From assembly GCA_014860565.1 (NCBI GenBank), contig JACZJN010000147.1:1-34573 (forward strand): a stretch of DNA of 34,573 bases, given 5' to 3'. Positions 18,176 through 34,545 of this stretch are shown here, one piece after another (the first letter of the stretch is position 1; each line of letters starts with the position of its first letter). Both the position numbers and the translations under genes were made by a program. The DNA is from Bacteroidota bacterium (GTDB lineage Bacteria > Bacteroidota > Ignavibacteria > SZUA-365). The notes under the pieces were generated by a model, which saw only the letters and a list, made by a program, of their open reading frames with translations, was not told where the DNA came from and did not search any database.

Positions 18176-18177
18176 GC

Positions 18178-18825
18178 ATGTACGAAGCCGCATATAGCGA
18201 ACAATACGACCCGGCGCAGTGGGAGCAGATCCGTCAAATGCTCGACACCGTGCGCATCAGTCTCGAACAGCAGAATCGCGTCACCGAAAGTGCAAACGCG
18301 GATGTGCTTCGGAAGCGTGCGAAGGTCTTTGCAGCACTCACACCGTCGACGATTGTCGAGGTGGATGAGAGCGAGGACCTGGTGCTTTTCATGCTGGGGA
18401 ATGACACCTACGGTGTTTCCTGCAACGAGATAGAAGAAGTCATTCCGCTGCAGAATCTTGTCGCCTTGCCGAATACAAACAAGTCGATCCTCGGTATTTC
18501 AAGCCTGCGGGGTATCCTTTTTTCCGTGGTCGATCTCAAGCGCGTTCTCAATATTCCCGCCTCCGAGCTGACGACGATGCATCGTGTATTGATGGTCCGG
18601 CACGAGAGTTTCAAAGTGGGATTTCTAGTGGACTCGGTACAGGGAATGCGCAGCTTCAGTAAGAATGAAATGCAGGATCTTCCTTCGGAAATCCACGAGC
18701 GTTCGCGCACCTATCTGCACGGACTCGCCCTAGGTAACGTTTTGATCCTCAACGCGCGCGTCATTCTACAGGACCAATTGGCCCCTGCTGAGGATAGAGC
18801 AGCGATGAAAGATAGCACTGAATAG
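18178..18825 (+). CDS. CheW-domain coupling protein with N-terminal extension (WspD-like)
   Basis: A 215-residue protein with a ~60-residue helical N-terminal extension (EQIRQMLDTVRISLEQQ, then LRKRAKVFA) before a CheW domain (~65-200). The CheW blocks are LVLFMLGNDTYGVSCNEI, SILGISSLRGILFSVVDL and FKVGFLVDSVQG. Extended CheW proteins with an LR.RA helix are usual in Wsp-type operons. It begins two bases after the CheR stop and is followed after 15 bp by the receptor gene, so it probably links this receptor to the operon's CheA. Confidence 0.92.
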   Translation: MYEAAYSEQYDPAQWEQIRQMLDTVRISLEQQNRVTESANADVLRKRAKVFAALTPSTIVEVDESEDLVLFMLGNDTYGVSCNEIEEVIPLQNLVALPNTNKSILGISSLRGILFSVVDLKRVLNIPASELTTMHRVLMVRHESFKVGFLVDSVQGMRSFSKNEMQDLPSEIHERSRTYLHGLALGNVLILNARVILQDQLAPAEDRAAMKDSTE

Positions 18826-18840
18826 AAACGAGGTCTGATC

Positions 18841-20637
18841 ATGCGCTGGTTCGCAAACCTGAAAACAAAATTCAAGTTATTCATCGGATTCGGTGTCGTC
18901 ATCGCCTTCCTCCTGGTTCTGATCGGAGTGGAAAATCTGCAATCGAACCGTTCACTTCAAGAGTACCGGATTCTTCAGGAGACGCAGATTCCCATCAACC
19001 AGACGGGGAACGATATCCTCAGTGAATTACTTCGTGAGCGGATGATTTTCGACCGTCTGCGTTTGCAGGGCGATCACCGTCTCACTGTGGATCAATTCGC
19101 CGCGCGCCGGGAACAGTACGTTCAGCAGCAGCGAAAAATCGATGGCCTGATTCTGCGTTTTCGCGCACTCCTCGGCAATGCGAGCCAGGAGGTTTCGGGC
19201 GATGAGGTGTTGAGCGCGCTGCAGAAACTGGACAAGCAGTTCGTCATCCTCACGCGCTCGCAGGAAACGCACACACGCCTGGCCGCCAAAGCCTTCCCAT
19301 TGTTCGAACGGGGGAATACGGACGCACTGCAAACGTTGAATGCCGAGTTCGAGGAAGACGAACAGGCGCTCGTCGGCGCGCTCGATCTGTTCAGCTACGA
19401 GCTGCGCAACCTCTTCGACGCTTCGCAGAACCGTATCAAATCCATCGAAGACACCGCCATGTGGTGGCGCATTTTCATTTTTGGTGCCGGCATCCTGCTT
19501 GTCATCTTTTTTGCCTCGTTTATTTCGCGCCTCATATCAAATCCGCTCAGTCTTGCGACCGAGATCGCCGAACGTCTCGGACAGGGAGATACCAACATCC
19601 CCATCAGCACCGACCGTCACGACGAAGTCGGCGAATTACTGAAGACCCTTGAGAAACTGAGGGCGAATTCAGACCACGAAGCACAGATCGCCGCGCGCAT
19701 CGCCGATGGTGATTTGACGGTCGAAATCACACCGCTTTCCGATAAGGATGTTCTCGGAAAGGCGCTCTCCGCAATGGTACATCGCCTGCGGACACAGATA
19801 CGCGAGATGATCGAAGGCATCAACGTGCTGGCGGCCGCAACCGCGGAACTCTCATCGACCATGGTGCAGATCGCGGCAGGCGCGAGAGAAACCGCCTCGT
19901 CGGTAAATGAAACCGCGACGACGCTGCTCGAGGTGAAACAGGCCTCGCAGCTTTCCAATCAGAAAGCCAAAATGATTTCCGATAACACCCAGCAAACCCT
20001 GCGTGTCTCCCACGATGGTGTTGACGCCATCGGGAAAAGCATCCAGAGCATGGAAAATATCCGTGAGCAGATGCGCGGGATCGCGGAAAGCATTATCAAA
20101 CTGAGCGAACAGGGCCAGGCCATCGGAGACATCGTCACTTCGGTGAATGATCTTGCCGAACAATCAAATATCCTCGCCGTGAATGCCGCCATTGAAGCCG
20201 CGAAAGCCGGTGAGTATGGGAAGGGTTTCACTGTCGTGGCCAAGGAAATCCGGAATCACGCCGAACAATCGAAGCAAGCGACGTCGAAAGTACGGTCGAT
20301 TCTCATCGATACGCAGAAAGCAACGGCATCCGCGGTCATGGTCGCCGAGCGCGGCACCAAACTCGCCGAGGACGGTGCGCAGCTCTCATCCCAGTCGGGC
20401 AACGCGATACAGACGGTGATGCAGGGTATCAATGAAACTGCGGAATCGATGCTGCAGATTGCAGCGTCGGCGAAGGAGCAGGTGGTCGGACTCGACCAGG
20501 TGACAACCGCCATTCAGCATATCAAATCAGCGAGCGAGCAGAACGTGGAATCCATACACCAGGTCGAACTGACAGCACAGAACCTCAAGGAATTGGGGAC
20601 CCGGCTGCAGCGCTTCGTCGAACGCTATAAACTCTGA
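18841..20637 (+). CDS. Methyl-accepting chemotaxis receptor with HAMP domains (WspA-like)
   Basis: A 598-residue membrane receptor. TM1 (~12-30) and TM2 (~208-232) bracket a ~175-residue helical periplasmic domain of the 4HB type. A HAMP domain (~230-285) is followed by a second HAMP-like unit (~285-318, IADGDLTVEITPLSDKDVLG), so HAMPs appear to be in tandem. The signalling domain has the conserved hairpin tip around DLAEQSNILAVNAAIEAAKA (~437-456), which binds CheW and CheA. No NWETF-type CheR tether ends the protein. GAGG precedes ATG 18841. The ligand is unknown; Wsp-type receptors respond to surface contact, but that is not shown here. Confidence 0.94.
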   Translation: MRWFANLKTKFKLFIGFGVVIAFLLVLIGVENLQSNRSLQEYRILQETQIPINQTGNDILSELLRERMIFDRLRLQGDHRLTVDQFAARREQYVQQQRKIDGLILRFRALLGNASQEVSGDEVLSALQKLDKQFVILTRSQETHTRLAAKAFPLFERGNTDALQTLNAEFEEDEQALVGALDLFSYELRNLFDASQNRIKSIEDTAMWWRIFIFGAGILLVIFFASFISRLISNPLSLATEIAERLGQGDTNIPISTDRHDEVGELLKTLEKLRANSDHEAQIAARIADGDLTVEITPLSDKDVLGKALSAMVHRLRTQIREMIEGINVLAAATAELSSTMVQIAAGARETASSVNETATTLLEVKQASQLSNQKAKMISDNTQQTLRVSHDGVDAIGKSIQSMENIREQMRGIAESIIKLSEQGQAIGDIVTSVNDLAEQSNILAVNAAIEAAKAGEYGKGFTVVAKEIRNHAEQSKQATSKVRSILIDTQKATASAVMVAERGTKLAEDGAQLSSQSGNAIQTVMQGINETAESMLQIAASAKEQVVGLDQVTTAIQHIKSASEQNVESIHQVELTAQNLKELGTRLQRFVERYKL

Positions 20638-20659
20638 TCCACTCGCACTCAACAGCGTC

Positions 20660-23296
20660 ATGAATGAAGTAGAATTTCTTCAAAAGCTGCGCGAAGCGTT
20701 TGCCATCGAAGCGGATGAACATTACCGCGCTATCAGCAAATGTCTCACCGACCTGGAGCACACATCGAACGGTGATGCCCAGGGAGTGATCGAGCTTATT
20801 TTCAGGGAGGCACACAGCCTGAAAGGGGCAGCGCGCGCAATCAACCGTGTCGATATCGAAGCACTCTGTCAGGCGCTCGAAAGCCTGTTCTCTCTCTGGA
20901 AAAAGGATCCGAAGGTCGCAGACAGGAAGCATTTTGACGCCACCGCCCAGGCCGTGGACATTCTCGCTGAGATGCTGACAAGTGATACGGAATTCTCGCT
21001 GAATCATGAAGCGCTGGAAACGGCCATAGAGCGTCTCAAGGAATTGTCCACTTCCGGAGCAGGGAAGGGCCCTGCGAGACCATCTCCGTGGAACGCGGAG
21101 CGGGAGGCGCAGAATCAAGAAGTGGCGGGGCACAGAGATGCGGTTCCCATTCAGATCCCGGAGAGCAGCTCCGAAGCAGTACATTCGGTGCCTCAGAGGC
21201 GCAACCTGGCGGCAATACCCGGCCTCCCCACCATCCCCGGACTTGATGCAATACCAGGACTCGGCGGCTCCACGGCGTGCGCAACACCGTCAAACGGCAA
21301 CGCTGCAGTTCGGTCGGAAGTCCCACCATCGAACGGTTCGCACAGCAAGACGGAGTCAAATCCGGTGAATGGCGCGCAGCTGTCTTCGGCAGCTTCGTCC
21401 GTTCCGGGAAATGGCGTTCGCGCGCACACGAACCCCGAAGGCAACCAACATTCGGTGAACAGATCGGAGACAGAATCACCACGAGATGGAGCCGCACTTT
21501 CCGGCACCGGAGCGGCATTCAGGACCGTCAAAGACACGATCCGCGTTTCCATTAGTGAATTGGAATCGCTGTATCGCCAGACCGAGGAACTGAGCAGCAT
21601 AAAATTCATGCTCGGCAGGCACGCGGCCGATCTCAGGCGCGTGATGGACCAATGCAGGGAATGGATCAGGGAGTATCACAAACAGCGGCAGAGCGTACTC
21701 GAAGAAACACAATATTCCGGCAACCGGAAGCGCGACGTGGAATTCTATACGAGTCAGAATGAAAAGCTGCAGAACTTCATGAAGTGGACCGCGCGCCAGG
21801 TCGAGGGCATCGAGTCCGCCGTCGGGAAGAATCTTGAGGACGGTCGTGGAACCATGTACATCATGGAAAGCATGTCAGAAGCCATGATGGAGAATGCGAA
21901 GCAACTCCTGCTGCTGCCGTTTTCCCTGGTAACCGATCCCTTGCCTGGCATCGTGCGCAAGCTCGCGCGCGACCTGAACAAAGACCTGCGTTTCCAGGTT
22001 CTGGGCGATGAGATCCGTATCGACAAACGCATCCTCGAAGCGCTGAAGGACCCGCTCCTGCATCTCCTCCGAAACAGTATTGATCATGGAATCGAAGATG
22101 CCGCGACACGTGCACGCTGTCAGAAATCAGTAACAGGGAGCATCACTCTGACGATTCAAACCGCCACTGACAACCGTATCGAACTGCTGCTCGAAGACGA
22201 CGGTCGCGGCATCGATATCGAACGCGTCAAGTGCAAAGCCATCACGGAAGGCGTTCTCACCGAGGAGAAGGCCAGGAAACTCGCAGATCGGGACGCACTT
22301 GATCTGGTATTTCTTTCCGGCATAACCACCAGTCCGATCATCACCGACCTGTCGGGACGCGGTGTCGGCCTCAACGTAGTGCGGGAAAATATTCTTGGAA
22401 TGGGCGGTGAAATCGATATTGAGACTGACAAGGGAACGAGGACGCTGTTTCGAATCTCGCTACCACTCTCTCTCTCGAATGCGCGCGGCGTGCTGGTCCG
22501 AAGCCAGGGTAAACTCTTCGTCGTGCCTCTGCAGTTCGTCGAACGCGGGCTCAGCATGCATCGAGAAAATTTCTCCACGCTTGATGGCAAGTCCGTGATC
22601 GACTATCACGGACGCACCGTTACCGTGCGCCGGCTTGAAGAAATTCTTACCGGGCAGAACAGCGGCAAAAGGGAAGAGCGGCCACAGGCCATCATCCTTC
22701 TCCTGCGCCTTTCTTCACGTCTTCTCGCACTCGAGGTGGACGAAATTCTCTGGGAGCAGGACGTAGTGATCAAACCGCTTCCGGCACCGGTCTCCCGCGT
22801 GCGCACTATCGCAGGAGCAACATTGCTCAGCAGCGGAGAGCTGGTGCTCGTGCTGCAGATCCCGGATCTGTTTGATGCCTCCCGGGGCGTCGTCGCTGCT
22901 GGCAGAAGCGAGCAACCGCTGCAGGAAGCCAGGCGTCATCGCCTTCTCGTGGTCGACGATTCGATCACGTCCCGCGTACTGCTCCATGATATCCTCGTCA
23001 ATTCAGGATACGAGGTTCAAACCGCGGTCGACGGCATCGACGCGCTCACCCATATGCGGGAAGAGCATTTTGATCTGATCGTCTCCGACGTTGAAATGCC
23101 GCGAATGAACGGATTCGAACTGACCGAGGCGGTGCGCAAGGATGAGAAGATGCATGATACGCCTCTCATACTTGTCACCGGCCTTGAATCACAGGAGGAC
23201 AGGGAGCGGGGATTTGATGTCGGCGCCAACGCATATATAAATAAAAGCAGCTTCGATCAAAGCAATCTCATCGATGTGATCGAGCGGCTGATATGA
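20660..23296 (+). CDS. CheA-receiver hybrid histidine kinase (WspE/FrzE-like)
   Basis: An 878-residue cytosolic kinase. HPt has phospho-acceptor His52 in AHSLKGAARA. A ~170-residue Ser/Pro/Asn-rich linker (~128-290) includes three IPGL motifs spaced exactly six residues apart (186-201). A predicted coiled-coil dimer region follows (~290-430). HATPase has HLLRNSIDHGIE (468-479), DDGRGIDI (513-520) and GRGVGLNVV (566-574). A CheW-like domain (~600-740) precedes a C-terminal receiver with D766/D767, phospho-acceptor D810 and K862. The order P1-P3-P4-P5-REC is that of WspE and FrzE; the P2 domain is replaced by the low-complexity linker. The gene follows the receptor by 22 bp and precedes cheB by 1 bp. 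Confidence 0.95.
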   Translation: MNEVEFLQKLREAFAIEADEHYRAISKCLTDLEHTSNGDAQGVIELIFREAHSLKGAARAINRVDIEALCQALESLFSLWKKDPKVADRKHFDATAQAVDILAEMLTSDTEFSLNHEALETAIERLKELSTSGAGKGPARPSPWNAEREAQNQEVAGHRDAVPIQIPESSSEAVHSVPQRRNLAAIPGLPTIPGLDAIPGLGGSTACATPSNGNAAVRSEVPPSNGSHSKTESNPVNGAQLSSAASSVPGNGVRAHTNPEGNQHSVNRSETESPRDGAALSGTGAAFRTVKDTIRVSISELESLYRQTEELSSIKFMLGRHAADLRRVMDQCREWIREYHKQRQSVLEETQYSGNRKRDVEFYTSQNEKLQNFMKWTARQVEGIESAVGKNLEDGRGTMYIMESMSEAMMENAKQLLLLPFSLVTDPLPGIVRKLARDLNKDLRFQVLGDEIRIDKRILEALKDPLLHLLRNSIDHGIEDAATRARCQKSVTGSITLTIQTATDNRIELLLEDDGRGIDIERVKCKAITEGVLTEEKARKLADRDALDLVFLSGITTSPIITDLSGRGVGLNVVRENILGMGGEIDIETDKGTRTLFRISLPLSLSNARGVLVRSQGKLFVVPLQFVERGLSMHRENFSTLDGKSVIDYHGRTVTVRRLEEILTGQNSGKREERPQAIILLLRLSSRLLALEVDEILWEQDVVIKPLPAPVSRVRTIAGATLLSSGELVLVLQIPDLFDASRGVVAAGRSEQPLQEARRHRLLVVDDSITSRVLLHDILVNSGYEVQTAVDGIDALTHMREEHFDLIVSDVEMPRMNGFELTEAVRKDEKMHDTPLILVTGLESQEDRERGFDVGANAYINKSSFDQSNLIDVIERLI

Positions 23297-23297
23297 C

Positions 23298-24410
23298 ATG
23301 GTAAATGTCTTCTCCATAGCGTATTCCTCCGGATGGGCCCATCGTCTCAACCAGCTGTGCGCGCACCGCAGCGACATTCAGATTGTGCGCACGGTGTACG
23401 GGAACGACAGCATTCTTAACGAGCTCGCAGCCTCCGGGGCCGATATTGTGGCGATCGAAGGCGGCGAGGACTGGGAACGAGTGAAAACCGTGACACGCAC
23501 AATAATGGAAGGGTATCCGTTGCCCGTGGTTATTCTTGCTTCTGAAAAAGAATGCGGGGACGACCTTCAGTCCGCCGGTCCTCTGGATGCAGGAGCGCTG
23601 AGTCTCCTCAGGATCCCTTCATACGCAGGTCCGAGCGAAGAACCCGTACTCGCCGAGCAGCTGGTGAAGAGTCTCCGTCTGATGTCCGAAGTCAAAGTTG
23701 TTCGTCGTTGGGACAGCGCGCGGCTGGAATCCCTCTCTCGCGTCCATCAGGAAGTGCGTGCCGTCGGACAGGTGACAAAGCATCTCGATATCGTTGTTAT
23801 CGGCGCCTCGGCCGGTGGTACCAAGGCACTTCAGGAGGTGTTTTCACACCTCCCGGCGGCATTCCCGCTGCCGATCCTGGTCGTGCAGCATATCGCCAAA
23901 GGCTATCTTCGGGGGTTGGCTCACTGGCTCGACGAGCAGACGGAACTCAACGTTTCCATCGCCGAAAACGGACAGAGGTTGGAAGGGGGAACCGTCTATC
24001 TTGCACCCGATGATGCGCATTTGACAGTTGACCGAAAACATTGTATTCTTCTCGCTGATGACGAGCCTGTCAACGGTTTCAAACCTTCCATCGCACGTCT
24101 GTTTTCCAGCGTTCACGATACGTATGGCGGTCATGCCGTGGCAATTCTCCTCTCCGGAATGGGGAACGATGGTGCGCAGGAAATGCTGCATCTCAATCTC
24201 GCCGGGGCTGTCACCATTGCACAGGACAAGGACACCTCGCTTATTCACGGAATCCCAGGCGAGGCGATTAAACTTGCGGCCGTCAGCCTGATCCTGCCGA
24301 TTCAGGAGATCGGTGCCGCGTTGTTGTCACTCACGGCCAAGAGTACTGCCGAAATCACAAAGACAGAAGACAGTCGCCTGGAGAACGGCGATGTCTCAGA
24401 ACAGGAATGA
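23298..24410 (+). CDS. CheB-type MCP methylesterase with degenerate receiver domain (WspF-like)
   Basis: A 370-residue enzyme that removes receptor methyl esters. The C-terminal CheB domain is intact: catalytic S171 in IGASAGGTKAL, H198 in VVQHIAKG and D291 in SGMGNDGAQEM. The N-terminal ~130 residues align in position with a receiver but lack its key residues: there is no acidic pair after the first strand (VFSIAYSS), and the phospho-acceptor position reads ADIVAIEGG, with Glu54 in place of Asp. It should therefore not be phosphorylated in the usual way, and the Glu could mimic a phosphorylated state. It starts one base after the CheA stop and overlaps a possible upstream start of the next gene. 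Confidence 0.93.
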   Translation: MVNVFSIAYSSGWAHRLNQLCAHRSDIQIVRTVYGNDSILNELAASGADIVAIEGGEDWERVKTVTRTIMEGYPLPVVILASEKECGDDLQSAGPLDAGALSLLRIPSYAGPSEEPVLAEQLVKSLRLMSEVKVVRRWDSARLESLSRVHQEVRAVGQVTKHLDIVVIGASAGGTKALQEVFSHLPAAFPLPILVVQHIAKGYLRGLAHWLDEQTELNVSIAENGQRLEGGTVYLAPDDAHLTVDRKHCILLADDEPVNGFKPSIARLFSSVHDTYGGHAVAILLSGMGNDGAQEMLHLNLAGAVTIAQDKDTSLIHGIPGEAIKLAAVSLILPIQEIGAALLSLTAKSTAEITKTEDSRLENGDVSEQE

Positions 24411-24411
24411 C

Positions 24412-25701
24412 ATGTCAACCGGAATCGAAATACTTGTCGTCGAAGACAGTCCCACCCAGGCGCTGAAGCTCAAGTACATCCTCGAAAAACAGGAGTATGC
24501 CGTCCGTCTCGCCACGAATGGTCGGGAGGGACTCGAAGCGATCGCCCAGCGGCGCCCGACACTGGTCATTTCGGATGTCCTTATGCCGGAGATGGACGGC
24601 TACGAGCTGTGCTCCCACATCAAGGCGGACGACGAATTAAGCAGCATACCGGTCATTCTTCTCACGACACTTTCCGATCCGCAGGACATCATTCGGGGGC
24701 TGGAAAGCGGGGCGGACAATTTTCTCAACAAGCCCTACAGCGAGGAAGCGCTGCTTTCTCGCATCAAGTACATTCTCATCAACATGGACGTTCGCACGCG
24801 CACGCGCACGGGCATGGGGATAGAGATCTACTTCGCGAACAAGAAGCATTATCTCACGTCGGAACGCATCCAGATCATCGATCTTCTCTTGTCGACGTAC
24901 GAAAATGCGGTCGAGAAAAACAGGGAGTTGGAGCTAGCCAACAAAAAACTGCGTGCGGTACAGGAAGAAATCGAAAAAAGCAACGATCAGCTCAAACAGC
25001 TCAACGAGCAGAAAAACATGCTGCTGGGAATGGCGGCGCACGACCTGCGGAATCCGCTCTACCTGATCGAGGGCTACAGCGAATTTCTGCTGAAGGACAA
25101 CAGCGAGAATATTTCCGCCGATCAGCGCACCATCATTTCCGCCATACAGAGCAGCAGCACATACATGGTGCAGATGATCAATGACCTGCTCGATGTGCAC
25201 AAGATCGAGACGGGTAAAATGGACCTTAAACTCGAGGTCGCGGATTTTACACAGGTCGTACGCAATGTCATAGACCGGAATGAATTCTCGGCAACAAACA
25301 AGGGTGTTGAAATAACGGTGTCTCTTCCTGACGATATTCCTCACTTCCTCTTCGATCCTTCACGGATTGAGCAGGTGATGGGGAATCTCATCGATAACGC
25401 GATCAAATTCTCGTTCAAAGGCTCTGCGATTGAAGTATCCGTGCAATATCATGATGCCGAGATCATGTTTTCCGTGAAGGATTACGGTCCGGGAATTCCC
25501 GAAAAGGAACAGGGCCGACTCTTCAAACCTTTCAGCACCACAAGCGTGAAGCCCACGGGGAACGAGAAAAGCACAGGGCTCGGGCTTGCGATAGCCGAAA
25601 GCATCGTCTCGAAGCATAATGGGAGGATCTGGGTCCAGAGCGAACAGGGGAAAGGTTCGCAATTCTGCTTCGCGCTCCCGGTTCGGCAGCAATACGTCTG
25701 A
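24412..25701 (+). CDS. Response regulator-histidine kinase fusion (REC-coiled coil-HisKA-HATPase), probable operon output
   Basis: A 429-residue soluble protein. The receiver (~5-125) has E11-D12, phospho-acceptor D55 in ISDVLMPEMDG and K107 in NKPYS. A long coiled coil (~165-200) leads to HisKA with His210 in AAHDLRNP. HATPase has NLIDNAIKFS, DYGPGIP and STGLGLAI. It occupies the operon slot that WspR (REC-GGDEF) or FrzZ fills elsewhere, so the CheA-REC kinase probably phosphorylates D55 and thereby controls a second kinase. The frame runs upstream to 24313; ATG 24412 is preferred because AGGA precedes it and it starts just after the cheB stop at 24410. ATG 24391 is the alternative. Confidence 0.9.
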   Translation: MSTGIEILVVEDSPTQALKLKYILEKQEYAVRLATNGREGLEAIAQRRPTLVISDVLMPEMDGYELCSHIKADDELSSIPVILLTTLSDPQDIIRGLESGADNFLNKPYSEEALLSRIKYILINMDVRTRTRTGMGIEIYFANKKHYLTSERIQIIDLLLSTYENAVEKNRELELANKKLRAVQEEIEKSNDQLKQLNEQKNMLLGMAAHDLRNPLYLIEGYSEFLLKDNSENISADQRTIISAIQSSSTYMVQMINDLLDVHKIETGKMDLKLEVADFTQVVRNVIDRNEFSATNKGVEITVSLPDDIPHFLFDPSRIEQVMGNLIDNAIKFSFKGSAIEVSVQYHDAEIMFSVKDYGPGIPEKEQGRLFKPFSTTSVKPTGNEKSTGLGLAIAESIVSKHNGRIWVQSEQGKGSQFCFALPVRQQYV

Positions 25702-25835: not shown

Positions 25836-26513
25836 ATGAGACTTCTTATCGTAGAAGACGAAATCAAGGTTTCTCAGTTCCTTCAAAAAGGCTTTGAGGA
25901 AGAATTATTTTCAGTCGACACCGCCCAGGACGGGGAGCAGGGCTTGTTCCTTGCGATGACCGAAAACTATGACGTCATCATCCTCGACCTCATGCTCCCG
26001 AAAATGAACGGGGTCGATGTTCTGAAGGAACTTCGCAAGGAAAAATCCACACCCGTGCTCGTGCTGACCGCCAAGGGACAGCTGGAGAGCAAGGTGGAGG
26101 TTCTGAACATCGGGGCGGACGACTACTTGACCAAACCGTTCGCACTTGCGGAATGCATCGCCCGTGTGCGATCCCTTATGCGCCGCGCGCAGATGGAAAA
26201 ACCTTCGAACGTCCTCTCTGCCGATACCCTGGAGCTCGATCAGATCCAGCATATCGTCAAGAGGGAAGGCAAGGTGATTGATCTTACCGTCAAGGAGTTC
26301 AAGCTCCTCGAGTATCTGCTCCGCAGCAAGAATACCGTTCTGACGCGCTCTGCCATCATCGAGCATATCTGGGAAATCACCTTCGATACAGGGACCAACG
26401 TACTCGACGTCTACATGACGCGTCTGCGCAAGAAAGTGGACGACGATTTCGAAGTGAAGCTCATCCATACCATACGCGGCGTCGGCTACATTCTCAAGGA
26501 CGACGAGGAATGA
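25836..26513 (+). CDS. OmpR/PhoB-family response regulator
   Basis: A 225-residue DNA-binding regulator. The receiver (1-~118) has E7/D8, phospho-acceptor D51 in IILDLMLPKMNG, the TAK switch residue at ~78-80 and K100 in TKPF. The winged-helix domain (~125-222) contains LTVKEFKLLEYLL and ends IHTIRGVGYIL, as in the CusR/PhoB group. The start has no convincing Shine-Dalgarno, but the MRLLIVEDE opening fits the family exactly. Its stop overlaps the kinase start (ATGA), so the two are co-translated. It sits directly upstream of the pilus-like locus; whether it binds the repeats there is untested. Confidence 0.95.
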   Translation: MRLLIVEDEIKVSQFLQKGFEEELFSVDTAQDGEQGLFLAMTENYDVIILDLMLPKMNGVDVLKELRKEKSTPVLVLTAKGQLESKVEVLNIGADDYLTKPFALAECIARVRSLMRRAQMEKPSNVLSADTLELDQIQHIVKREGKVIDLTVKEFKLLEYLLRSKNTVLTRSAIIEHIWEITFDTGTNVLDVYMTRLRKKVDDDFEVKLIHTIRGVGYILKDDEE

Positions 26514-27565
26514 AAATCGGTCAGAGGCAGAAGGCCATTCTGCTCTACTCTTCGACCATTTTCGGCGCCTTCGTGCTGATCTTTCTTCTGGTCATCACGA
26601 TTTTCACACAGCATTTCTATTCCTTGAATGTTTTCGACTCGAACGTACTCGAACGATACCGCTCGACATTCACGGGCATAGGTATTTTGTTCATCCCTGC
26701 CGGGCTGTTTTTCGCGCTTGCTATCGGCTGGATTATTTCCCAGGAACTGCATCCCAAGAAGCAGCGGGATAGTTTCCGTATTGATGGCCCGGGAGACATT
26801 GCCGAAAGGGAAGAGGATTTCCGGGAAAAGATTCACACGGTGCACAGCACCATCAAGAGCATGCAGGCGGCGTACGAGCAGATTCAGACGTTCTCCGCGA
26901 ATGCTTCGCACGAACTGCGTACGCCGCTGACGATCATGCGCGGCGAGATCGAGCTCGCCCTGCGCAACCCGAAATCCCCCGATGAATATCAACTCCTGCT
27001 CGGGAGCCTGCACGAGGAGATCATGCGGCTCTCGCGCATACTCGACGATCTCCTGCTGATTGCGAAAACGGAGATCGGCGAACGACCGATAGAACTGCAG
27101 CCGATGGATCTGCGGGAACTTGTCGAGGAATTGGCGGACGAGGCGGAGATGTTCGCTGAACAGACGGGGATCAACTTCGAGCTCGGCGAAACCGTCGATG
27201 CATTCGTCGAAGCGGAACCCCTGCGCATCCGTCGTGTGCTGCTCAATCTGATTGACAACGCCGTCAAGTACAACCGGAAGAACGGAACGGTGCGAATGTC
27301 GATGGCGCTCGATAACGATTTCGTCGCGGTGCGCGTCGAGGACACCGGCATCGGGATTCCTCCCGAAGCCATCCCCCGGCTCTTCGAGCGCTTTTACCGA
27401 GTCAACGATTCCGAGAAGCAGGGGACGAAGGGCACCGGCCTCGGACTCTACCTGGTGCACTGGATCGTCAAGAACCACGGCGGAACGATCGAGGTGGAAA
27501 GCCAGCCTGGGCAGGGCAGCGCCTTCACCCTGCGCCTCCCGCTGCGCAATGTTAGCATATCATAG
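26510..27565 (+). CDS. Membrane histidine kinase partnered with the OmpR regulator
   Basis: A 351-residue kinase. Two TM helices (~10-33 and ~54-77) are separated by only ~20 residues, so there is essentially no periplasmic sensing domain; it may sense the membrane or a partner protein. A short linker follows (no clear HAMP consensus). HisKA has His134 in NASHELRTPL. HATPase has NLIDNAVKYN, DTGIGIPPE, RFYRVN and GTGLGLYLV. All catalytic boxes are intact. It overlaps the regulator stop by four bases. The stop is followed by 329 bp without a credible gene, which holds two copies of the 46-bp repeat. Confidence 0.93.
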   Translation: MKIGQRQKAILLYSSTIFGAFVLIFLLVITIFTQHFYSLNVFDSNVLERYRSTFTGIGILFIPAGLFFALAIGWIISQELHPKKQRDSFRIDGPGDIAEREEDFREKIHTVHSTIKSMQAAYEQIQTFSANASHELRTPLTIMRGEIELALRNPKSPDEYQLLLGSLHEEIMRLSRILDDLLLIAKTEIGERPIELQPMDLRELVEELADEAEMFAEQTGINFELGETVDAFVEAEPLRIRRVLLNLIDNAVKYNRKNGTVRMSMALDNDFVAVRVEDTGIGIPPEAIPRLFERFYRVNDSEKQGTKGTGLGLYLVHWIVKNHGGTIEVESQPGQGSAFTLRLPLRNVSIS

Positions 27566-27634
27566 TATAATACCCGATACTCTTAAGACATTACCCTCAG
27601 CAACTCATCCAGCCCTCCTACTTACCTTTCACTC

Positions 27635-27680
27635 TTGTAATTCTGCATTCAGCGGTTTGTAAGGTTCGCCTTGTAAATTG
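27635..27680 (+). repeat. 46-bp TTGTAA-rich repeat, copy A
   Basis: It begins TTGTAATTCTGCATTCAG and ends CTTGTAAATTG. It contains TTGTAA at repeat positions 1, 23 and 37. By eye it matches copy B at about 37 of 46 bases without gaps. It lies in the 329-bp gap between the kinase and the first pilin-like gene, 132 bp upstream of copy B. Confidence 0.75.
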
Positions 27681-27766
27681 ACCTCTGTAACATTCATCAG
27701 GTCAGTGAAACAATACGCAATCATGTTCAACAGCTCTTCAAAATCGGCCCCGGAAATGTTACATCG

Positions 27767-27812
27767 TTGTAATGCAGAATTCAGCCGTTTGTAAGAATGA
27801 CCATGTAAATTG
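27767..27812 (+). repeat. 46-bp TTGTAA-rich repeat, copy B
   Basis: It begins TTGTAATGCAGAATTCAG and ends CATGTAAATTG, with no gaps relative to copies A and C. It starts 128 bp before the ATG of the first pilin-like gene. The remaining gap sequence, 27566-27894, shows no gene I would defend. Confidence 0.75.
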
Positions 27813-27894
27813 CACAGTAGATTTTCGCAGTAAGAAAACAGTCCTAGTTCTCTAATCACACTCTCTCTCTTCAACATTTTCCAGGAGATTTGTT

Positions 27895-28332
27895 ATGGGT
27901 ACGCAACAGCTTCTTCTCATCGTCCTCGGTGTCATCATTGTCGGTATCGCCGTTGTGGTTGGTATCAACATCTTCGGATCCAACGCTGAGCAGGCCAACA
28001 AGGATGCCGTGACGCAGGATTGCCTCCGCGTCGCAGCGGCAGCACAGGGCTTCTTCCGCAAGCCGGAAATGCTCGGTGGCGGCGAAGGCGATTTCACGAA
28101 CATTGAAATCACCGATTGCGGTATGACCGCTGACGACGGTGAGACCATGGTCAGCACGAACATCAACGGTGTGTATACCCTCTCTGGTAATGCCGATGCG
28201 GATCTCACTATTACCGGCAATCCCCTCGATGGAACTGGAGCAGCCGACGTCGAACGTGCTGTCGTGATCACGCTCGACATGGCCGGTGCCACCGATGCCG
28301 ACCGCGTTTCGACTGCATACACTGGCTGGTAA
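27895..28332 (+). CDS. Small pilin-like protein 1 (leaderless, type IV pilin/pseudopilin-like)
   Basis: A 145-residue protein. A hydrophobic helix begins almost at the start codon (MGTQQLLLIVLGVIIVGIAV, continuing to ~28), followed by a charged helix (SNAEQANKDAVTQDCLRVA) and a beta-rich C-terminal domain ending YTGW. This is the shape of a type IV pilin or pseudopilin: helical spine plus globular head, with C43 and C75 well placed for a disulfide. It lacks a basic leader and the G|F-x3-E prepilin peptidase site. AGGAG lies seven bases before the ATG. Its own strong terminator follows, as expected for an abundant monocistronic subunit. The pilin role is inferred from architecture and from the GspE/GspF genes downstream; I do not recognise a named family. 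Confidence 0.7.
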   Translation: MGTQQLLLIVLGVIIVGIAVVVGINIFGSNAEQANKDAVTQDCLRVAAAAQGFFRKPEMLGGGEGDFTNIEITDCGMTADDGETMVSTNINGVYTLSGNADADLTITGNPLDGTGAADVERAVVITLDMAGATDADRVSTAYTGW

Positions 28333-28371
28333 TATCAACCAACGGAACTCTCTCTTCATAGCATTCGGTTC

Positions 28372-28403
28372 AACGCCGCCGTCCCCGGGACGGCGGCGTT
28401 TTT
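28372..28403 (+). terminator. Strong rho-independent terminator after pilin-like gene 1
   Basis: A perfect 13-bp stem, aacgccgccgtcc (28372-28384) with ggacggcggcgtt (28388-28400), has a 3-base loop and is followed by tttaat, giving five Ts in a row with the stem end. This is the strongest terminator in the window. It isolates the first pilin-like gene as its own transcript. Confidence 0.92.
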
Positions 28404-28444
28404 AATATTACCCCGGTGATGCGAGAGTCCGATAGGTTTCAATT

Positions 28445-28490
28445 TTGTAATGCCGGATTTAATCGTTTGTAATGTTGCACTTGTAGATTG
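28445..28490 (+). repeat. 46-bp TTGTAA-rich repeat, copy C
   Basis: It begins TTGTAATGCCGGATTTAATC and ends CTTGTAGATTG. By eye it matches copy B at about 34 of 46 bases without gaps. It starts 115 bp before the ATG of the second pilin-like gene, just after the terminator of the first. Confidence 0.72.
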
Positions 28491-28559
28491 CATTCAAGTA
28501 TGTGCAGGAACCCTGAAGTAGATAACAGGTTGTCGACAGCAGTGTAAAGGAGCGTTGAA

Positions 28560-28976
28560 ATGGGTTCACAACAGTTATTGCTGATCGTTCTCGGGTGTAT
28601 CGTTGTCGGCACGGGCGTGGCCCTGGCGCTTCTGTTTTTTGGCTCAAGCGCCGAGCAGGCGAACAAGGACGCGCTGACGCAGGATTGCCTCAAACTGATC
28701 TCTACCGCGCAGGCCTATTTCGGCAAGCCCGCAATGCTGGGCGGTGGGGACCACTCATTCAAGGGGATCACGATTCGTGATTGCGGCATGGCGATGAACG
28801 AGAAAGGCGTGGGGCAGAACCTGACCGGCACATTCGCAATGGTGGATATCACGGATCCCACGCTGAGCGTTCAGGCAGTGTCAAACACGAATGCCGCACA
28901 GACGGTTACCGTAACCATCGACATGCGCGAGAGTACCCCTGAAAAACGTCTTTCCGTCGAATATACGGGTTGGTGA
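28560..28976 (+). CDS. Small pilin-like protein 2 (paralog of the preceding gene)
   Basis: A 138-residue paralog of the 27895-28332 product. The first 45 residues are nearly the same (MGSQQLLLIVLG, SSAEQANKDALTQDCLKL), the two cysteines keep positions 43 and 75, and the protein again ends YTGW; the middle of the head domain has diverged. An extra cysteine (C13) sits inside the TM helix. No prepilin leader or Glu5-type signature is seen. AAGGAG lies seven bases before the ATG. No terminator separates it from the platform gene, so it may be read together with the assembly genes, unlike its neighbour. A role as alternative or initiating subunit is inference. Confidence 0.7.
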   Translation: MGSQQLLLIVLGCIVVGTGVALALLFFGSSAEQANKDALTQDCLKLISTAQAYFGKPAMLGGGDHSFKGITIRDCGMAMNEKGVGQNLTGTFAMVDITDPTLSVQAVSNTNAAQTVTVTIDMRESTPEKRLSVEYTGW

Positions 28977-29046
28977 TCATAACGCGCTTTTTGGCCCGAA
29001 TCCCCTCCGATTATTACTCGCCTCTCTCTCAACCTGCCTTTCATAT

Positions 29047-29092
29047 TTGTAATGCGTGTTTAAGTCCCTGTTAAGAATGCAGCACTATCTTA
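29047..29092 (+). repeat. Degenerate 46-bp repeat, copy D
   Basis: It shares TTGTAATGC at the start, preceded by CTTTCA as in copy A, and a TTAAGAATG block at the position of the second hexamer. The third hexamer is not recognisable. It starts 130 bp before the platform-protein ATG. It is the weakest copy, and its family membership is partly supported by its position. Confidence 0.45.
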
Positions 29093-29176
29093 CGGTGTGA
29101 GGATGCGACCGACTGTCCCGTTTCAGAGAGCATCGCAGCGCATCCGAAGGAAGTAGGAAAAGAAAGGAAGTATATC

Positions 29177-30625
29177 ATGGCGGATTTCAGATTCCAGGGC
29201 GTTGTCCCATCCGGGAAGATCATCCAGGGTACCATATCGGCTAACAACGCGGCCGAGGCGAAGAAGAAGATTCAGGAACTGTCGAAGGGACGCGGTTTCC
29301 GCCTCAATCAGCTCGACAAGCGTGCGGCATACGTCTACAAGGCGAAAAAAGGCGAGAAGGTCACCGAGGGTGAGCAGAAGGCCTATTCGAAGTCCGAGGT
29401 CGAGAATGCTCTTACTTCAATGGGGTACAAGGTCGTTTATGTCCGCAAAAAATTGGCTATCAATGTCGGTTCACCGCCGGTTGCGGATATCATCACTTTT
29501 GTGCGCCTGAGCGCCGACCTTCTGCGTGAGAAACTCCCCTTCAACGAAGTGATCAGTCTCCTTTCCAATGACATGGAAAACCGGATGCTGAAGGAGACGC
29601 TCAAGGATATCAATTCCGATCTCCGCAAGGGCGCCGAAAGCGAGCGCGTGTTCATGAAATACGAGCATGTTCTCGGAAAATTCACCGCGAAGATGCTGGG
29701 CCTCGCCTCGAAAAGCGGCGCCATGGCCGAAATGTATGAATCGACTGCGAAGTTTCTCGAGCGCCGTATGGAATTCAAAAAAAGCATGAAGAGCGCGATG
29801 ATGATGCCCATGATCACTCTCGTCATTCTCTTCCTGGCTGTGATCTTCTACGTTGCATACATATTTCCCGAAACAGCGCGCATGTTCCTCAAATACGGCA
29901 TCGAACTGCCGCCCATGACCGCCGCCACGCTTGAATTTTCGGAGTGGCTGGTCGCAAACATCATTTTCTTCGTGATTGCGACGATCGGAATGATTGTGGG
30001 CGTGATCATGCTCTTCACGAATGCGAAAAGCCGAACGTGGATCGATAAGATTTCCTTCCGTGTTCCCGTTCTCGGTGGGCTGATACACAAGACTGCCATC
30101 GAGGTATTCTGCCGCGTGTTTTATTCGCTGTACAGCGGTTCGGGTGAAAACATCGATGTGATCAAGACCGCGGCGGAGGCGACGGGAAACAAACATTTCG
30201 AGAGACAGATCCTCACGGTCACTATTCCCATGATGCTCAAACACGGGAAAGGACTGCACGAGAGCTTCGAGGCTTCCGGTGTGTTTACACGCACGGCTCT
30301 GTCCCGCTTCCATGCGGGCGCCGAGACGGGTATGGTCCGCGAAACGGCCCAACAGCTCGCCAACTACTACGAGCGTGAAACCACGTACAAGCTGAAGTCG
30401 GTTGTCGATTTCATGCAGCTGTGGGTCGCACTCCTTATCATGGTCGTCATGGCCGCCCTGACTATCGTTTCGTCCGAAACCTCCGTCATCAAACCGAAAG
30501 CAGCTCCGGGCATGGGCGACTTCTGGTATCTGCACATGCTCCTCACCACCGGACCCATTACTCACTATCTGAAACGGATCTACAATGGATGCCGCAGCTT
30601 CCTTACTGGAACGGAAAATCGATAA
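29177..30625 (+). CDS. GspF/PilC-family inner-membrane platform protein with duplicated N-terminal module
   Basis: A 482-residue polytopic protein of the type II secretion/type IV pilus platform family, which anchors the assembly ATPase and pulls subunits from the membrane. Two GspF domains (~105-230 and ~305-430) and three TM helices (~208-230, ~260-282, ~412-432) are seen. Landmarks are FVRLSADLLREKLPFNEVI, LASKSGAMAEMYEST and FHAGAETGMVRETAQQLANYYERE. The N-terminus normally has one module of the form F.Y.a....G....G...A....eA...L...G. Here two appear in series: residues 4-45 (FRFQGVVPSGKIIQGTISAN) and 52-91 (YVYKAKKGEKVTEGEQKA). AAGGAAG lies six bases before the ATG. The 3' end overlaps the ATPase gene by 41 bp. 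Confidence 0.93.
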   Translation: MADFRFQGVVPSGKIIQGTISANNAAEAKKKIQELSKGRGFRLNQLDKRAAYVYKAKKGEKVTEGEQKAYSKSEVENALTSMGYKVVYVRKKLAINVGSPPVADIITFVRLSADLLREKLPFNEVISLLSNDMENRMLKETLKDINSDLRKGAESERVFMKYEHVLGKFTAKMLGLASKSGAMAEMYESTAKFLERRMEFKKSMKSAMMMPMITLVILFLAVIFYVAYIFPETARMFLKYGIELPPMTAATLEFSEWLVANIIFFVIATIGMIVGVIMLFTNAKSRTWIDKISFRVPVLGGLIHKTAIEVFCRVFYSLYSGSGENIDVIKTAAEATGNKHFERQILTVTIPMMLKHGKGLHESFEASGVFTRTALSRFHAGAETGMVRETAQQLANYYERETTYKLKSVVDFMQLWVALLIMVVMAALTIVSSETSVIKPKAAPGMGDFWYLHMLLTTGPITHYLKRIYNGCRSFLTGTENR

Positions 30626-32381
30626 AGTCGGCGTCGCCCTTCTCCACAAGGGTATCGTCGATCGGGAGACGATTTCCAAGGCGATTGCCACCAAGGAGAA
30701 AGAGGCAGGCCGCAAGCATCGCAGCCTGGCGGAGATCCTGGTCGAGGATTATGCGCTCGATCACCATGTCGTTTTTTCCGAAGTAGCCAGAATCTACGCG
30801 TTCAAGACGCTGAAGATCGACGAAGCGATGACCGAGCGCCGCCTGAGCATCATCAAGCAGATGATCGACACGCTCTCGCAGGAGCAGAAGGTCATGCTGT
30901 TCAAGGCGCGTACGCTGCCGCTGCAATTCGATACACGTACACCGGACAAGCTCGTACTGGTCTCTGCTGTCCCGATCCATCGCGAGATCCCGCGCATCGC
31001 GAGCTACTTCCGTGCGCTGAAATACGAAGTCTACTACGCGGAATTGAAAGCGCTGCAGCCCCATCTCGATAACCTCCTGCGAGGCGACAACATCTTCCTC
31101 GAAAGCATCAAGGAGATGGAGGCGGAGCTGCAGGAATCCGACATGGACTCGGGGATTGACGAAGCAGAGCTCGACCAGGAAATCAACAAGAGCATGCTCG
31201 TCAACCTTTTCGAAGGGAGCCTCGTTGAAGCCGTACGAACAGGTGTCAGCGATATTCACATCTTCCCGACGACAAAGATGGTCACGGAATTCCATTTCCG
31301 TGTCGACGGCAAACTGGCGCTGTGGAACAAAGTCGAGGGGACGCGACCCGAAGCCGTGCTGGCGGTGGTCAAGGATCGAAGCATCAATATCGACCGCTTC
31401 GAGCGGGATGCGGCGCAGGACGGCTTCATCCAGCGGACCATCGACAATTTTATCATTCGTTTCCGCGTTTCCGTATTGCCAATCGCCGGATCGGAATACG
31501 CGCAGAAATTCGAAAGTATCGTTATTCGTGTCCTCGACAGCCGCAAGGTGATCAAGGATATTTCGAAGATTGGTTTCCAGCCGAAGGCTTTCGAGTGGTT
31601 CCAGGCGTCCATTTCCAAACCCCAGGGCATGATCATTCTCACGGGTCCAACGGGAAGCGGAAAAAGTACGACGCTGGTCGCTGCCTTGTATTCCGTCATC
31701 ACACCCATGGTCAATGCGCTGACGGTGGAGGATCCTGTCGAATACGTCATCGACGGCGCACGGCAGATCAAGATTTCGCACAAGGTCGATTTCGAACAGG
31801 CCATCCGGGCCATCCTGCGTCACGATCCCGACATTGTCATGGTAGGTGAGATGCGCGATAAGCTGACCGCGGATATCGCCATCAAGCTCGCGAATACCGG
31901 ACACCTGACGTTTTCCACGCTGCATACCAACGATGCGCCCAGCGCGGTTACACGTCTGTTCAAGATGGGCATCGAACCGTTCCTTATCGCATACGCGATC
32001 AACCTCGTCGTCGCCCAGCGCCTCGTGCGCAGGCTGTGTCCGAAATGCAAGCGACCGTCAAAGGACCTCGATGAGGCGGAACTGCTCAACGTCGGTTTTA
32101 CGCCGGAAGAAATCGAGAACACAACATTTTACGAGCCGGTGGGCTGTCCGAGCTGCGTGAAGGGATACAAGGGCCGCGCAGCCATCCACGAATCCCTGTT
32201 TTTCTCGAGAGAGATCCGCAAGGCAGTGTTCGATTCAGGTGACGATATCGACGAAGATAAAATTCGAAGCATCGCAATCAGTCAAGGCATGTTGACGCTG
32301 CGTGCCAGCGCGCGCGAGCGCGTGAAGGAAGGGGTCACGTCCGTCGCCGAGGTCATCTCGGCAACCATGTCTGATGAATAG
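30585..32381 (+). CDS. GspE/PilB-family assembly ATPase with MshEN-like N-terminal domain
   Basis: A 598-residue hexameric ATPase that powers subunit assembly from the cytoplasm. Walker A is GPTGSGKST (354-362), Asp box VEDPVEY (381-387), Walker B DPDIVMVGEMRD (414-425) and His box STLHTNDAPSA (444-454). The zinc tetracysteine is C485-x2-C488 and C521-x2-C524, which marks an extension-type (GspE/PilB/MshE) rather than a PilT-type retraction enzyme. The N-terminus (residues 11-36) follows the MshEN spacing in degenerate form: KVGVALLHKG then IVDRETISKAIATK. The gene starts 41 bp inside the platform gene, without a clear Shine-Dalgarno, so translation is probably coupled. Confidence 0.95.
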   Translation: MDAAASLLERKIDKVGVALLHKGIVDRETISKAIATKEKEAGRKHRSLAEILVEDYALDHHVVFSEVARIYAFKTLKIDEAMTERRLSIIKQMIDTLSQEQKVMLFKARTLPLQFDTRTPDKLVLVSAVPIHREIPRIASYFRALKYEVYYAELKALQPHLDNLLRGDNIFLESIKEMEAELQESDMDSGIDEAELDQEINKSMLVNLFEGSLVEAVRTGVSDIHIFPTTKMVTEFHFRVDGKLALWNKVEGTRPEAVLAVVKDRSINIDRFERDAAQDGFIQRTIDNFIIRFRVSVLPIAGSEYAQKFESIVIRVLDSRKVIKDISKIGFQPKAFEWFQASISKPQGMIILTGPTGSGKSTTLVAALYSVITPMVNALTVEDPVEYVIDGARQIKISHKVDFEQAIRAILRHDPDIVMVGEMRDKLTADIAIKLANTGHLTFSTLHTNDAPSAVTRLFKMGIEPFLIAYAINLVVAQRLVRRLCPKCKRPSKDLDEAELLNVGFTPEEIENTTFYEPVGCPSCVKGYKGRAAIHESLFFSREIRKAVFDSGDDIDEDKIRSIAISQGMLTLRASARERVKEGVTSVAEVISATMSDE

Positions 32382-32432
32382 CGCGGATAACTTCACGGCA
32401 GCTCCATACATGCGTGAAAAGAAGAGGCATTT

Positions 32433-32945
32433 ATGAATACTGGACAAATGATGCTCACGATCGCGGCTTTCATGCTACTGGGAGTGGTGACGCTCAACTT
32501 ACGGACTGCCAGCTTCCAGAATGAGGAAGTGCTGGATGGAAATGAGTACACGCAGAAAGCGGTGGCAATCGGACGATCGTTGATCGAGGAGATGCAGGAA
32601 AAACCGTTCGATGCCGCATTCAACACGAAAAAAATCGTGAAGCTGCAGGATCTTACGTCCTGCGGGCCGGGTACCGGTGAAAAGTATCCCAACTTCAGCG
32701 ATCTCGACGACTTCCATGGCTCGGTCTTTCGCAGTCCCGCCCCTGGTGTAACGCCGACAACGACCACGCCGAAATGCCTCTGGGATACATGGGGTTACAC
32801 AGTGCGGGTTACCGTCGAATATGTTTCAACGACAAATCCCACAGTGAAAGTGTCTGGTACGTCCTTCGCCAAACGCGTAACACTCAGCATCTTCAATTCC
32901 TTTTCCAATGAAACAGTAATAATGTCATATTTAGCGGCATACTAA
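32433..32945 (+). CDS. Minor pilin-like protein (GspI/PilV-like)
   Basis: A 170-residue protein. A hydrophobic helix starts near the initiator (MNTGQMMLTIAAFMLLGVVT), followed by a helix with KAVAIGRSLIEEMQEKPFDA. The EEM..KPFD pattern is common after the helix of PilV/GspI-type minor pilins. The head domain is beta-rich with two cysteines (the C of LTSCGPG and of PKCLWDTWG). There is no leader peptide or G|F-x3-E site. AGAGG precedes the ATG. It is 51 bp after the ATPase gene and 1 bp before the next minor pilin-like gene. Assignment to the PilV/GspI slot rests on this pattern and order. Confidence 0.65.
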   Translation: MNTGQMMLTIAAFMLLGVVTLNLRTASFQNEEVLDGNEYTQKAVAIGRSLIEEMQEKPFDAAFNTKKIVKLQDLTSCGPGTGEKYPNFSDLDDFHGSVFRSPAPGVTPTTTTPKCLWDTWGYTVRVTVEYVSTTNPTVKVSGTSFAKRVTLSIFNSFSNETVIMSYLAAY

Positions 32946-32946
32946 C

Positions 32947-33501
32947 ATGAGCAGTCAACTGGATATTATCGGATCGATCATCATCGCAGGAATGATCATT
33001 CTCAATTTCTCCTTTTTCATGGGCGAAAGAACAGAATCCCAGATCGAAAGCACAAACAAGATCACTGCTCAGACCGATATCAGCGATGTGACGGAAACCT
33101 TGCGCTTCGATCTCAGAAAAGCCGGGTATGGCTGCGATACACTCCCGATTCTTCGTGCGACCGAAAATAGTTTGGTCTTTCGCGCCGATCTGGAAAATGA
33201 TGGGAAGATCGACACCATCGGGTACTATTTCGGAACTGCGAGCACACTGATCAGCGAGAAAAGTGGATCGCTGCTGTACCGTGTCGTTAACGGCAGGAAA
33301 CAGCAGGGACAGGATCTCGGATTGGAAGGCTTCCGCTTTATCTACTTCTCGACCAATTCGTACGGCACACTGTCGCAGACCACGACACTCGGCGATATTA
33401 AAGCGATCGGTGTAAGCCTGCGTCTGCGCAGCAAAATGAAAGTTGACGGTGAGTGCCAGTATTCGCTTAACGAATTCACCATTTCACCCAAGAACCTCTA
33501 G
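32947..33501 (+). CDS. Minor pilin-like protein (PilW/GspJ-like)
   Basis: A 184-residue protein with an N-terminal hydrophobic helix (LDIIGSIIIAGMIILNFSFFM) two to three residues after the start. The helix is followed by DISDVTETLRFDLRKAGYG, which matches the (i..dlr.AGyg) block of PilW-type minor pilins, and then by SLVFRADLENDGKIDTIGYYFG and a late LLYRVVNG. Three features fit PilW/GspJ: the conserved arginine/aspartate helix, the 'D.n.dg..d.i.Y' strand and the 'l.R.v.g' strand. No prepilin leader is present. It begins one base after the previous stop. Confidence 0.72.
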   Translation: MSSQLDIIGSIIIAGMIILNFSFFMGERTESQIESTNKITAQTDISDVTETLRFDLRKAGYGCDTLPILRATENSLVFRADLENDGKIDTIGYYFGTASTLISEKSGSLLYRVVNGRKQQGQDLGLEGFRFIYFSTNSYGTLSQTTTLGDIKAIGVSLRLRSKMKVDGECQYSLNEFTISPKNL

Positions 33502-33516
33502 AAACGGAGCAGCAGC

Positions 33517-34545
33517 ATGGGCCAGCAATCTCTCATCATCGTTGCATTGTCTTCATTACTCGTGGGTATGTCCGTGCTGGGATTCATGGGTGCGTGGGAT
33601 TTTTCAAATGAAACAACCGCTTCAATGTTCGAACGTGAACAGGCGCTGAATATCACACGCAGCGGAATAAACCTGGCAATTTCCAACTTGCGCCATCAGA
33701 AAACCTGGCGCACCGGCTTCAATAATCTGAGTGTCACCGGCGGCACGGTTTCCGTTCGCGTCATCGATCTTGGGGTCGATACGGTGAGGATTACATCCGT
33801 CGGCACCATCAATGGCGTGAACCACAGGTCCGTAGTGGAAGTGAAATTAAGCAGCATCTTCCCGAACGTGGAGAGCGCTCTTACCATCTTCGGGGATTCG
33901 GTCGAGTTCCACAACGATGGGAAGGCATTCCAAATCGATGGGAGAGATTATTTGCCCGACGGAGTGACACTCGGAACCGCGCAGTCCGTGAAAGGGATTG
34001 GTGTGCAGAGTTCCAAACTGCAGGCGGATCTGATCAAGCATCTGGACCCGAAAGTGAACGGGAACATTCTGGGATCCGGTGGGACTCCCTCGATTGGTCC
34101 GTTCAGCGGCTCGAATCTCCCTACTCTTCAGAAGTTCTATAAAGACCGGGCGACGATCGTTCTGCCGGCTGGCAAGTACACCGCCAACAGCGTATTCGGC
34201 ACCTTGGATAAACCAGAAATTGTCTATGTTCCTGGAGACCTCGATTGGAAAGGTAATATCATGGGGGCAGGCATTCTCGTTGTCGATGGCAAACTCGAAA
34301 TGGGGGGGAACATACAGTGGCAGGGGATTATCCTCAGCCTCAGTGGTGATGTCACGATTGAGCTTGGCGGCTCGGGGAACCCCAGTGTCATCGGTACCGT
34401 GTGGGTTGGGAATACGAGCAGCAGCGGAGTCACGAACGTCAAAGTGAATGGAAGTCCCTCGATCAGATATAGTTATCTCACGCTCTCCAAAGTTCTCGCC
34501 AACCTCGGTTTGCTGGACGTGGAGGTCATCAAGTACTGGGAATAA
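33517..34545 (+). CDS. Large minor pilin-like protein (PilX/GspK-like) with beta-helix-like C-terminal region
   Basis: A 342-residue protein. The helix MGQQSLIIVALSSLLVGMSV begins at the start codon. EREQALNITRSGINLAISNL matches the 'ra..aA..GiN.A...L' block of PilX/GspK. The C-terminal half has repeated short strands (GAGILVVDGKLEMGGNIQWQ, then GIILSLSGDVTIELGG), suggesting a beta-helix-like domain seen in pilus-associated PilX-N-type proteins. The largest minor subunit usually sits at the fibre tip. No leader or G|F-x3-E site is seen. CGGAG lies before the ATG, 15 bp after the previous gene. The locus may continue beyond the window. Confidence 0.68.
   Translation: MGQQSLIIVALSSLLVGMSVLGFMGAWDFSNETTASMFEREQALNITRSGINLAISNLRHQKTWRTGFNNLSVTGGTVSVRVIDLGVDTVRITSVGTINGVNHRSVVEVKLSSIFPNVESALTIFGDSVEFHNDGKAFQIDGRDYLPDGVTLGTAQSVKGIGVQSSKLQADLIKHLDPKVNGNILGSGGTPSIGPFSGSNLPTLQKFYKDRATIVLPAGKYTANSVFGTLDKPEIVYVPGDLDWKGNIMGAGILVVDGKLEMGGNIQWQGIILSLSGDVTIELGGSGNPSVIGTVWVGNTSSSGVTNVKVNGSPSIRYSYLTLSKVLANLGLLDVEVIKYWE

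Follow-up and report, generated by a model that had tools for sequence, protein, structure and literature searches.

Background

Type IV filaments are treated as having two near-universal features, removal of a leader peptide by a dedicated peptidase and a glutamate as fifth residue of the mature subunit (Glu5). In the usual system the leader gives the subunit its positive-inside topology and is cut after a glycine, while Glu5 is required for homopolymeric assembly, Glu5 mutants being unable to form homopolymeric pili; the Nanoarchaeota are the sole phylum listed as having no detectable peptidase (PMC4471445). A survey of type IV filaments counts the prepilin peptidase as a core component, which can be common to several systems, and finds the so-called type II secretion system (T2SS) of Bacteroidetes peculiar (PMC6668835). 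No account of leaderless pilins was found in searches of open-licence papers. Here we describe a locus of a Bacteroidota genome, lying on a contig (C223) whose entire 34,573 nt constitute the window analysed, that most likely encodes one half, the first, of a type IVa-pilus machine built from pilins that require no leader processing.

The locus holds two major pilin-like genes (the majors, pilins 1 and 2), genes for a platform and an assembly ATPase, and three minor pilin-like genes (p3, p4 and p5; Table 1). A preliminary description of the window had recognised the platform (GspF/PilC) and ATPase (GspE/PilB) genes, and had read their five neighbours as pilin-like proteins with a hydrophobic helix that starts 2-5 residues after Met, a recurrent Gln and no Glu5. 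Open reading frame analysis recovered all seven genes, and the platform and ATPase assignments are upheld by their domain matches.

Subunits without a leader

In each of the five subunits of the window the hydrophobic helix starts no more than about 6 residues after Met, and in-frame stops lie a short way upstream. A search for in-frame ATG, GTG or TTG codons between Met and the upstream stop came out empty for 90 of 91 distinct majors encoded at genome loci; the stop itself is at most 10 codons away in 82 of the 91. In a second set of majors no upstream start exists in 129 of 136. When 1,814 pairs are compared, identity of the DNA before the ATG is about 0.3-0.5, with 0.61 in the highest block, and it climbs abruptly to about 0.9 at the very ATG, where triplet periodicity sets in; a local rise in identity about 10-18 nt upstream of the ATG of majors fits a ribosome-binding site. 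The start and stop counts together with the identity jump rule out hidden upstream starts that would supply leaders, and the absence of a leader noted in the preliminary description is thus borne out. The subunits lack the Gly-terminated class III leader that characterises type IVa pilins, and across relatives most members of the three minor classes also have no leader.

The majors start with the consensus MGQQQLLLIVLGVIIVGIA. Counting Met as residue 1, Gly occupies residue 2 in 219 of 222 majors and Gln residue 5 in 217, the other five having Glu, which refines the earlier remark on a recurrent Gln. There is no K or R within residues 1-5 in 217 of the 222, and a KPxxLGGG motif is strongly conserved. 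Gln5 is also found in 21 of 27 p3 proteins, and Asp6 in 15 of 26 p4 proteins. The Glu typical of position 5 in mature type IVa subunits is therefore not the residue of nearly all majors, in a count that takes Met as 1 and whose register to the mature numbering is not fixed; structural alignments set mature residue 1 opposite differing residues near the model N-terminus. The site before the hydrophobic stretch is thus polar but not literally Glu, and Gln5 (in majors and most p3) or Asp6 (in p4) is a plausible substitute for Glu5. The near-invariant Gly2 is compatible with removal of Met by methionine aminopeptidase, among other reasons.

Prepilin peptidase

In the source genome there was no match to PF01478 or PF06750 (A24 prepilin peptidase), nor to PF07963 (N_methyl). 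Majors are encoded in 73 of 198 genomes of the phylum, every one of which also has the platform. PF01478 detected A24 in 8 of these 73 genomes and in none of the other 65, against 21 of the 28 genomes with a platform but without a leaderless major (Fisher p ~1e-9, the species not being independent). Since PF01478 can miss divergent enzymes, we built a profile (A5) from the phylum's own A24 proteins, divergent ones included. This profile found A24 in 27 of the 28 leadered-only genomes, recovering six divergent enzymes that PF01478 had missed, yet in the 73 leaderless genomes it returned the same 8 and one weak partial match (G069, E 0.008). A failure of detection that would explain the missing peptidase was rejected on these grounds, as A5 recovers missed enzymes and adds nothing convincing in the leaderless genomes. 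All 8 genomes with both majors and A24 carry a second platform, and the three that were read (G065, G019 and G116) encode ordinarily leadered prepilins in their second system. No PF01478 match was found in Stygiobacter electus strain 09-Me or in the Ignavibacterium chromosome record CP070637 (isolate bin94), both of which carry majors.

Several short divergent A24 enzymes of the phylum score below PF01478 detection. Peptidases of this short kind (~155-160 aa) stand beside leadered prepilins at L165:7155-7631, L166:6469-6948 and L169:2682-3149.

The preliminary description left a choice between processing at Gly2 by a divergent peptidase and assembly of unprocessed subunits, and the evidence now favours the second. 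It seems unlikely that a peptidase that is no relative of A24, or has diverged from it beyond detection, still cuts the subunits after Gly2 (a two-residue leader MG, followed by Q). The near-invariance of Gly2 in majors does recall the -1 Gly of ordinary leaders, and PF01478 alone did overlook divergent A24 enzymes, but the loci read show no peptidase gene within their conserved order, the more sensitive profile contributes only a weak partial match, and the minors are often without Gly at residue 2 (Asn in 11 and Ser in 6 of 27 p3 proteins; mixed in p4). Removal of one or two residues by an unrelated peptidase, or plain removal of Met, may occur.

The second half of the machine

Where the region is intact, relatives usually carry, in this order, genes for the majors, PilC, PilB, three minor pilins, PilT, a PilM-like protein, a PilN/O-like protein and the secretin; some relatives have the three minor pilins displaced or inverted, or lack them at this locus. 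Contig C223 terminates 28 bases past the last pilin-like gene, so the operon was severed by the assembly, and the last four genes of the conserved order sit at the end of another contig of the source genome, C16 (locus L074). These encode PilT (match to PilT in the PDB, 3e-65), a protein with a family-profile match to Myxococcus PilN across its second half (8e-10), PilO (2.3e-5) and a secretin of PilQ type (5.6e-15; PF00263 is found in relatives). The second of these is read as a PilM-PilN fusion because of the PilN match, its PilM half being assigned by position. As gene order is conserved in relatives, C223 and C16 are probably adjacent in the genome, and together they would make up a type IVa-pilus set from which only the prepilin peptidase is lacking. 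The gaps pointed out in the preliminary description are thus of two kinds: the peptidase goes undetected genome-wide, whereas the secretin and PilM/N/O genes, and with them PilT, are absent from the window because of the assembly break.

The ATPase of the window matches TIGR02538 at 2.4e-125, under the equivalog cut-off, and its closest solved relatives are PilB structures in the PDB (2e-85). The platform matches the NCBIfam PilC and GspF models at 1e-37 to 1e-33, also under equivalog cut-offs. These assignments bear on a reading that we hold to be a little less probable still than cutting after Gly2, namely that the machine is a T2SS-like pseudopilus that secretes proteins and forms no surface pilus. 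Such a reading would agree with p4, which is most like GspJ, and with the PilM-PilN fusion, which would be like GspL in architecture, but the operon includes the retraction ATPase PilT, which had been identified in type IVa pili only (PMC4471445), and among solved relatives PilB scores above GspE and PilQ above GspD, the reverse of what a T2SS would give.

Some variation exists in this part of the locus. The PilB frame reaches ~1,100-1,160 aa in some high-GC relatives (L068:6813-10298, L069:9697-13182, L071:5341-8724 and L072:10474-13860), which suggests a large N-terminal extension. One family of relatives has a small cyclic-nucleotide-binding protein (PF00027, 1.6e-11) between PilB and PilT (L056:7507-8010, with similar genes in L054, L055, L057, L059, L060 and L066). 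At L061:6436-10187, a long p5 is surrounded by successive minor pilin genes, two of them p3-like and two p4-like, an arrangement that resembles a duplicated minor set.

Pilin fold

Structure models were made for two of the five subunits, pilin 1 and p4. The AlphaFold2 model of pilin 1, computed with 28 relatives (pLDDT 84.4, pTM 0.73), consists of a single helix (2-55) followed by a beta sheet. In a second-look structural alignment its first 18 rows were all type IV pilins or pseudopilins, among them PilV 5v23 (best, Z 9.3), K122-4 (8.8), PilE (8.2) and PAK (8.1), with the first unrelated row at 4.8, although Z values of this size for the major are near the range where common arrangements appear. 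The AlphaFold model of p4 (pLDDT 77.8, helix 2-57) has as its ten best rows TTHA1219 (Z 12.4), then XcpW, EpsJ and GspJ (11.3 to 10.0), the first unrelated row being at 5.3. Both proteins are thus predicted to have pilin-like folds, pilin 1 matching pilins of the PilV/PilA type and p4 those of the GspJ type; these models, along with homology and gene order, sustain the type IV pilus-like machine and the pilin fold of the preliminary description.

That the five small proteins are unrelated membrane-anchored envelope proteins that happen to stand beside a pilus locus is very improbable: they have no sequence family match and no significant profile link to leadered prepilins, but two of the five are predicted to have pilin folds, the platform accompanies the majors in 73 of 73 genomes, the source genome has no N_methyl pilin elsewhere, and homologues of these proteins adjoin PilB, PilC, PilT and secretin genes.

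Distribution and phylogeny

One scan of 84,980 species genomes (one genome per species) yielded 491 loci encoding relatives of the majors. The five pilins of the window have no significant match in Pfam or NCBIfam, and it follows from this, given the number of loci in the scan, that such pilins can escape searches that use leader or N_methyl models. The best 80 of the 491 loci come mostly from Ignavibacteria (Melioribacter, Stygiobacter, Ignavibacterium) and from records titled Bacteroidetes or Chlorobiota; one is titled Calditrichaeota. Matches occur in 11 of 40 genomes of the phylum of this last record, and the six loci read there start MGQQQLLL; the Calditrichaeota genome itself does carry A24. 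The leaderless family is therefore present in a second phylum as well, Calditrichota by record title. Leaderless pilins also offer an explanation for the Melioribacter roseus genome, in which pilT, pilQ, pilB and pilC were found and pilA and pilD were not (PMC3534657).

Phylogenetic analysis of PilB with PilT as outgroup places the 34 leaderless ATPases in one clade (support 0.96). Leaderless and leadered platforms are separate in the PilC tree (support 0.63).

Proposed mechanism

We think it likely, if with slightly less assurance than for the locus itself, that a widespread lineage, found in Bacteroidota and in a second phylum, makes type IVa pili without any prepilin processing, the subunits being translated at their mature length, with the N-terminus at Met1 or Gly2 and with Gln where Glu5 would stand. 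Subunits made at mature length would be inserted N-in/C-out by the hydrophobic helix alone and polymerised by PilB and PilC; the filament would pass through the secretin and be retracted by PilT. Inside the filament core the subunit would begin with the initiator Met, or with Gly2 once Met is removed, and the role of Glu5 would pass to the polar Gln that precedes the hydrophobic stretch (Gln5, in rare cases Glu). A24 would be absent for want of a substrate. Such a pilus is likely to serve twitching, adhesion or DNA uptake. If such a lineage exists, leader cleavage and Glu5 are not general requirements of type IV filament assembly, and a complete retractile machine with neither feature would make the role of both directly testable.

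Several points weigh against assembly without processing. The filaments and their N-termini are predicted from genes and models, and topology would have to be set without basic residues near the N-terminus. The negative A24 result in the source genome rests on a draft that is 97.8% complete. Two genomes, G046 (L180) and G175 (L181), have leadered prepilins and a platform without detected A24, so detection of A24 is imperfect; a decaying system or a missed peptidase may account for them. The raw Foldseek E-values for the pilin 1 and p4 models were not significant, and neither was an hhalign profile comparison of the majors with leadered prepilins.

Gene content and surroundings

Table 1. Genes of the leaderless pilus locus in the window
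Feature	Coordinates	Strand	Basis
Leaderless major pilin 1 (MGTQQLLLIVLG...)	27895..28332	+	Open reading frame, 145 aa; AlphaFold model and structural matches
Leaderless major pilin 2	28560..28976	+	138 aa; 49% identity to pilin 1
Inner-membrane platform, PilC/GspF type	29177..30625	+	PF00482 1.1e-26
Assembly ATPase, PilB type	30585..32381	+	PF00437 2.9e-97
Leaderless minor pilin p3, PilV/GspI-like	32433..32945	+	Position and motif; class conserved in relatives
Leaderless minor pilin p4, GspJ/PilW type	32947..33501	+	AlphaFold model and structural matches
Leaderless minor pilin p5, PilX/GspK-like	33517..34545	+	Size and position; class conserved in relatives

The gene for pilin 2 has a good ribosome-binding site immediately 5' of it. 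Just 5' of the pilin genes lies a chemosensory operon (16173-25701) coding for CheW, CheR with TPR, a further CheW, an MCP with HAMP, CheA with a receiver and CheB, followed by a receiver-histidine kinase gene. It is reminiscent of Pil-Chp or Frz pilus regulation, and its adjacency suggests regulated surface motility. Immediately before the pilin genes are an OmpR-type response regulator and a histidine kinase (25836-27565). A 62-nt direct repeat is present in three copies upstream of the two major pilin genes (27621-27682, 27753-27814 and 28431-28492); the copies contain TTGTAA and TTTGTAA blocks and share 68-71% identity with the reference copy. These repeats are possible regulator-binding sites, on which the OmpR-type regulator and histidine kinase pair could act.

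Comparison with known systems

Leadered pilus or T2SS-like systems of the same phylum have homologous PilB and PilC proteins, but they differ from the present system in their prepilins, which have a basic leader and a GFSLTELLV-type motif, in the presence of A24 in 27 of the 28 genomes with only this kind, and in their separate PilB clade. With the type II secretion pseudopilus (GspG-K) the likeness lies in the p4 fold, closest to GspJ/XcpW and TTHA1219; unlike that pseudopilus, the system described here has PilT and no leaders. The resemblance to the type IVa pilus extends over homologues of PilB and PilC (below the NCBIfam equivalog cut-offs), PilT, the PilN half, PilO and PilQ, all in one gene order, as well as the predicted pilin-like folds of a major (pilin 1) and a minor (p4) subunit. 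It departs from the type IVa pilus in having no leader, no A24 and Gln, rarely Glu, at residue 5 (Met = 1), and in the apparent fusion of PilM and PilN. As leader, peptidase and Glu5 all belong to the strict definition of the type IVa pilus, this system falls outside it and is a new variant of that pilus.

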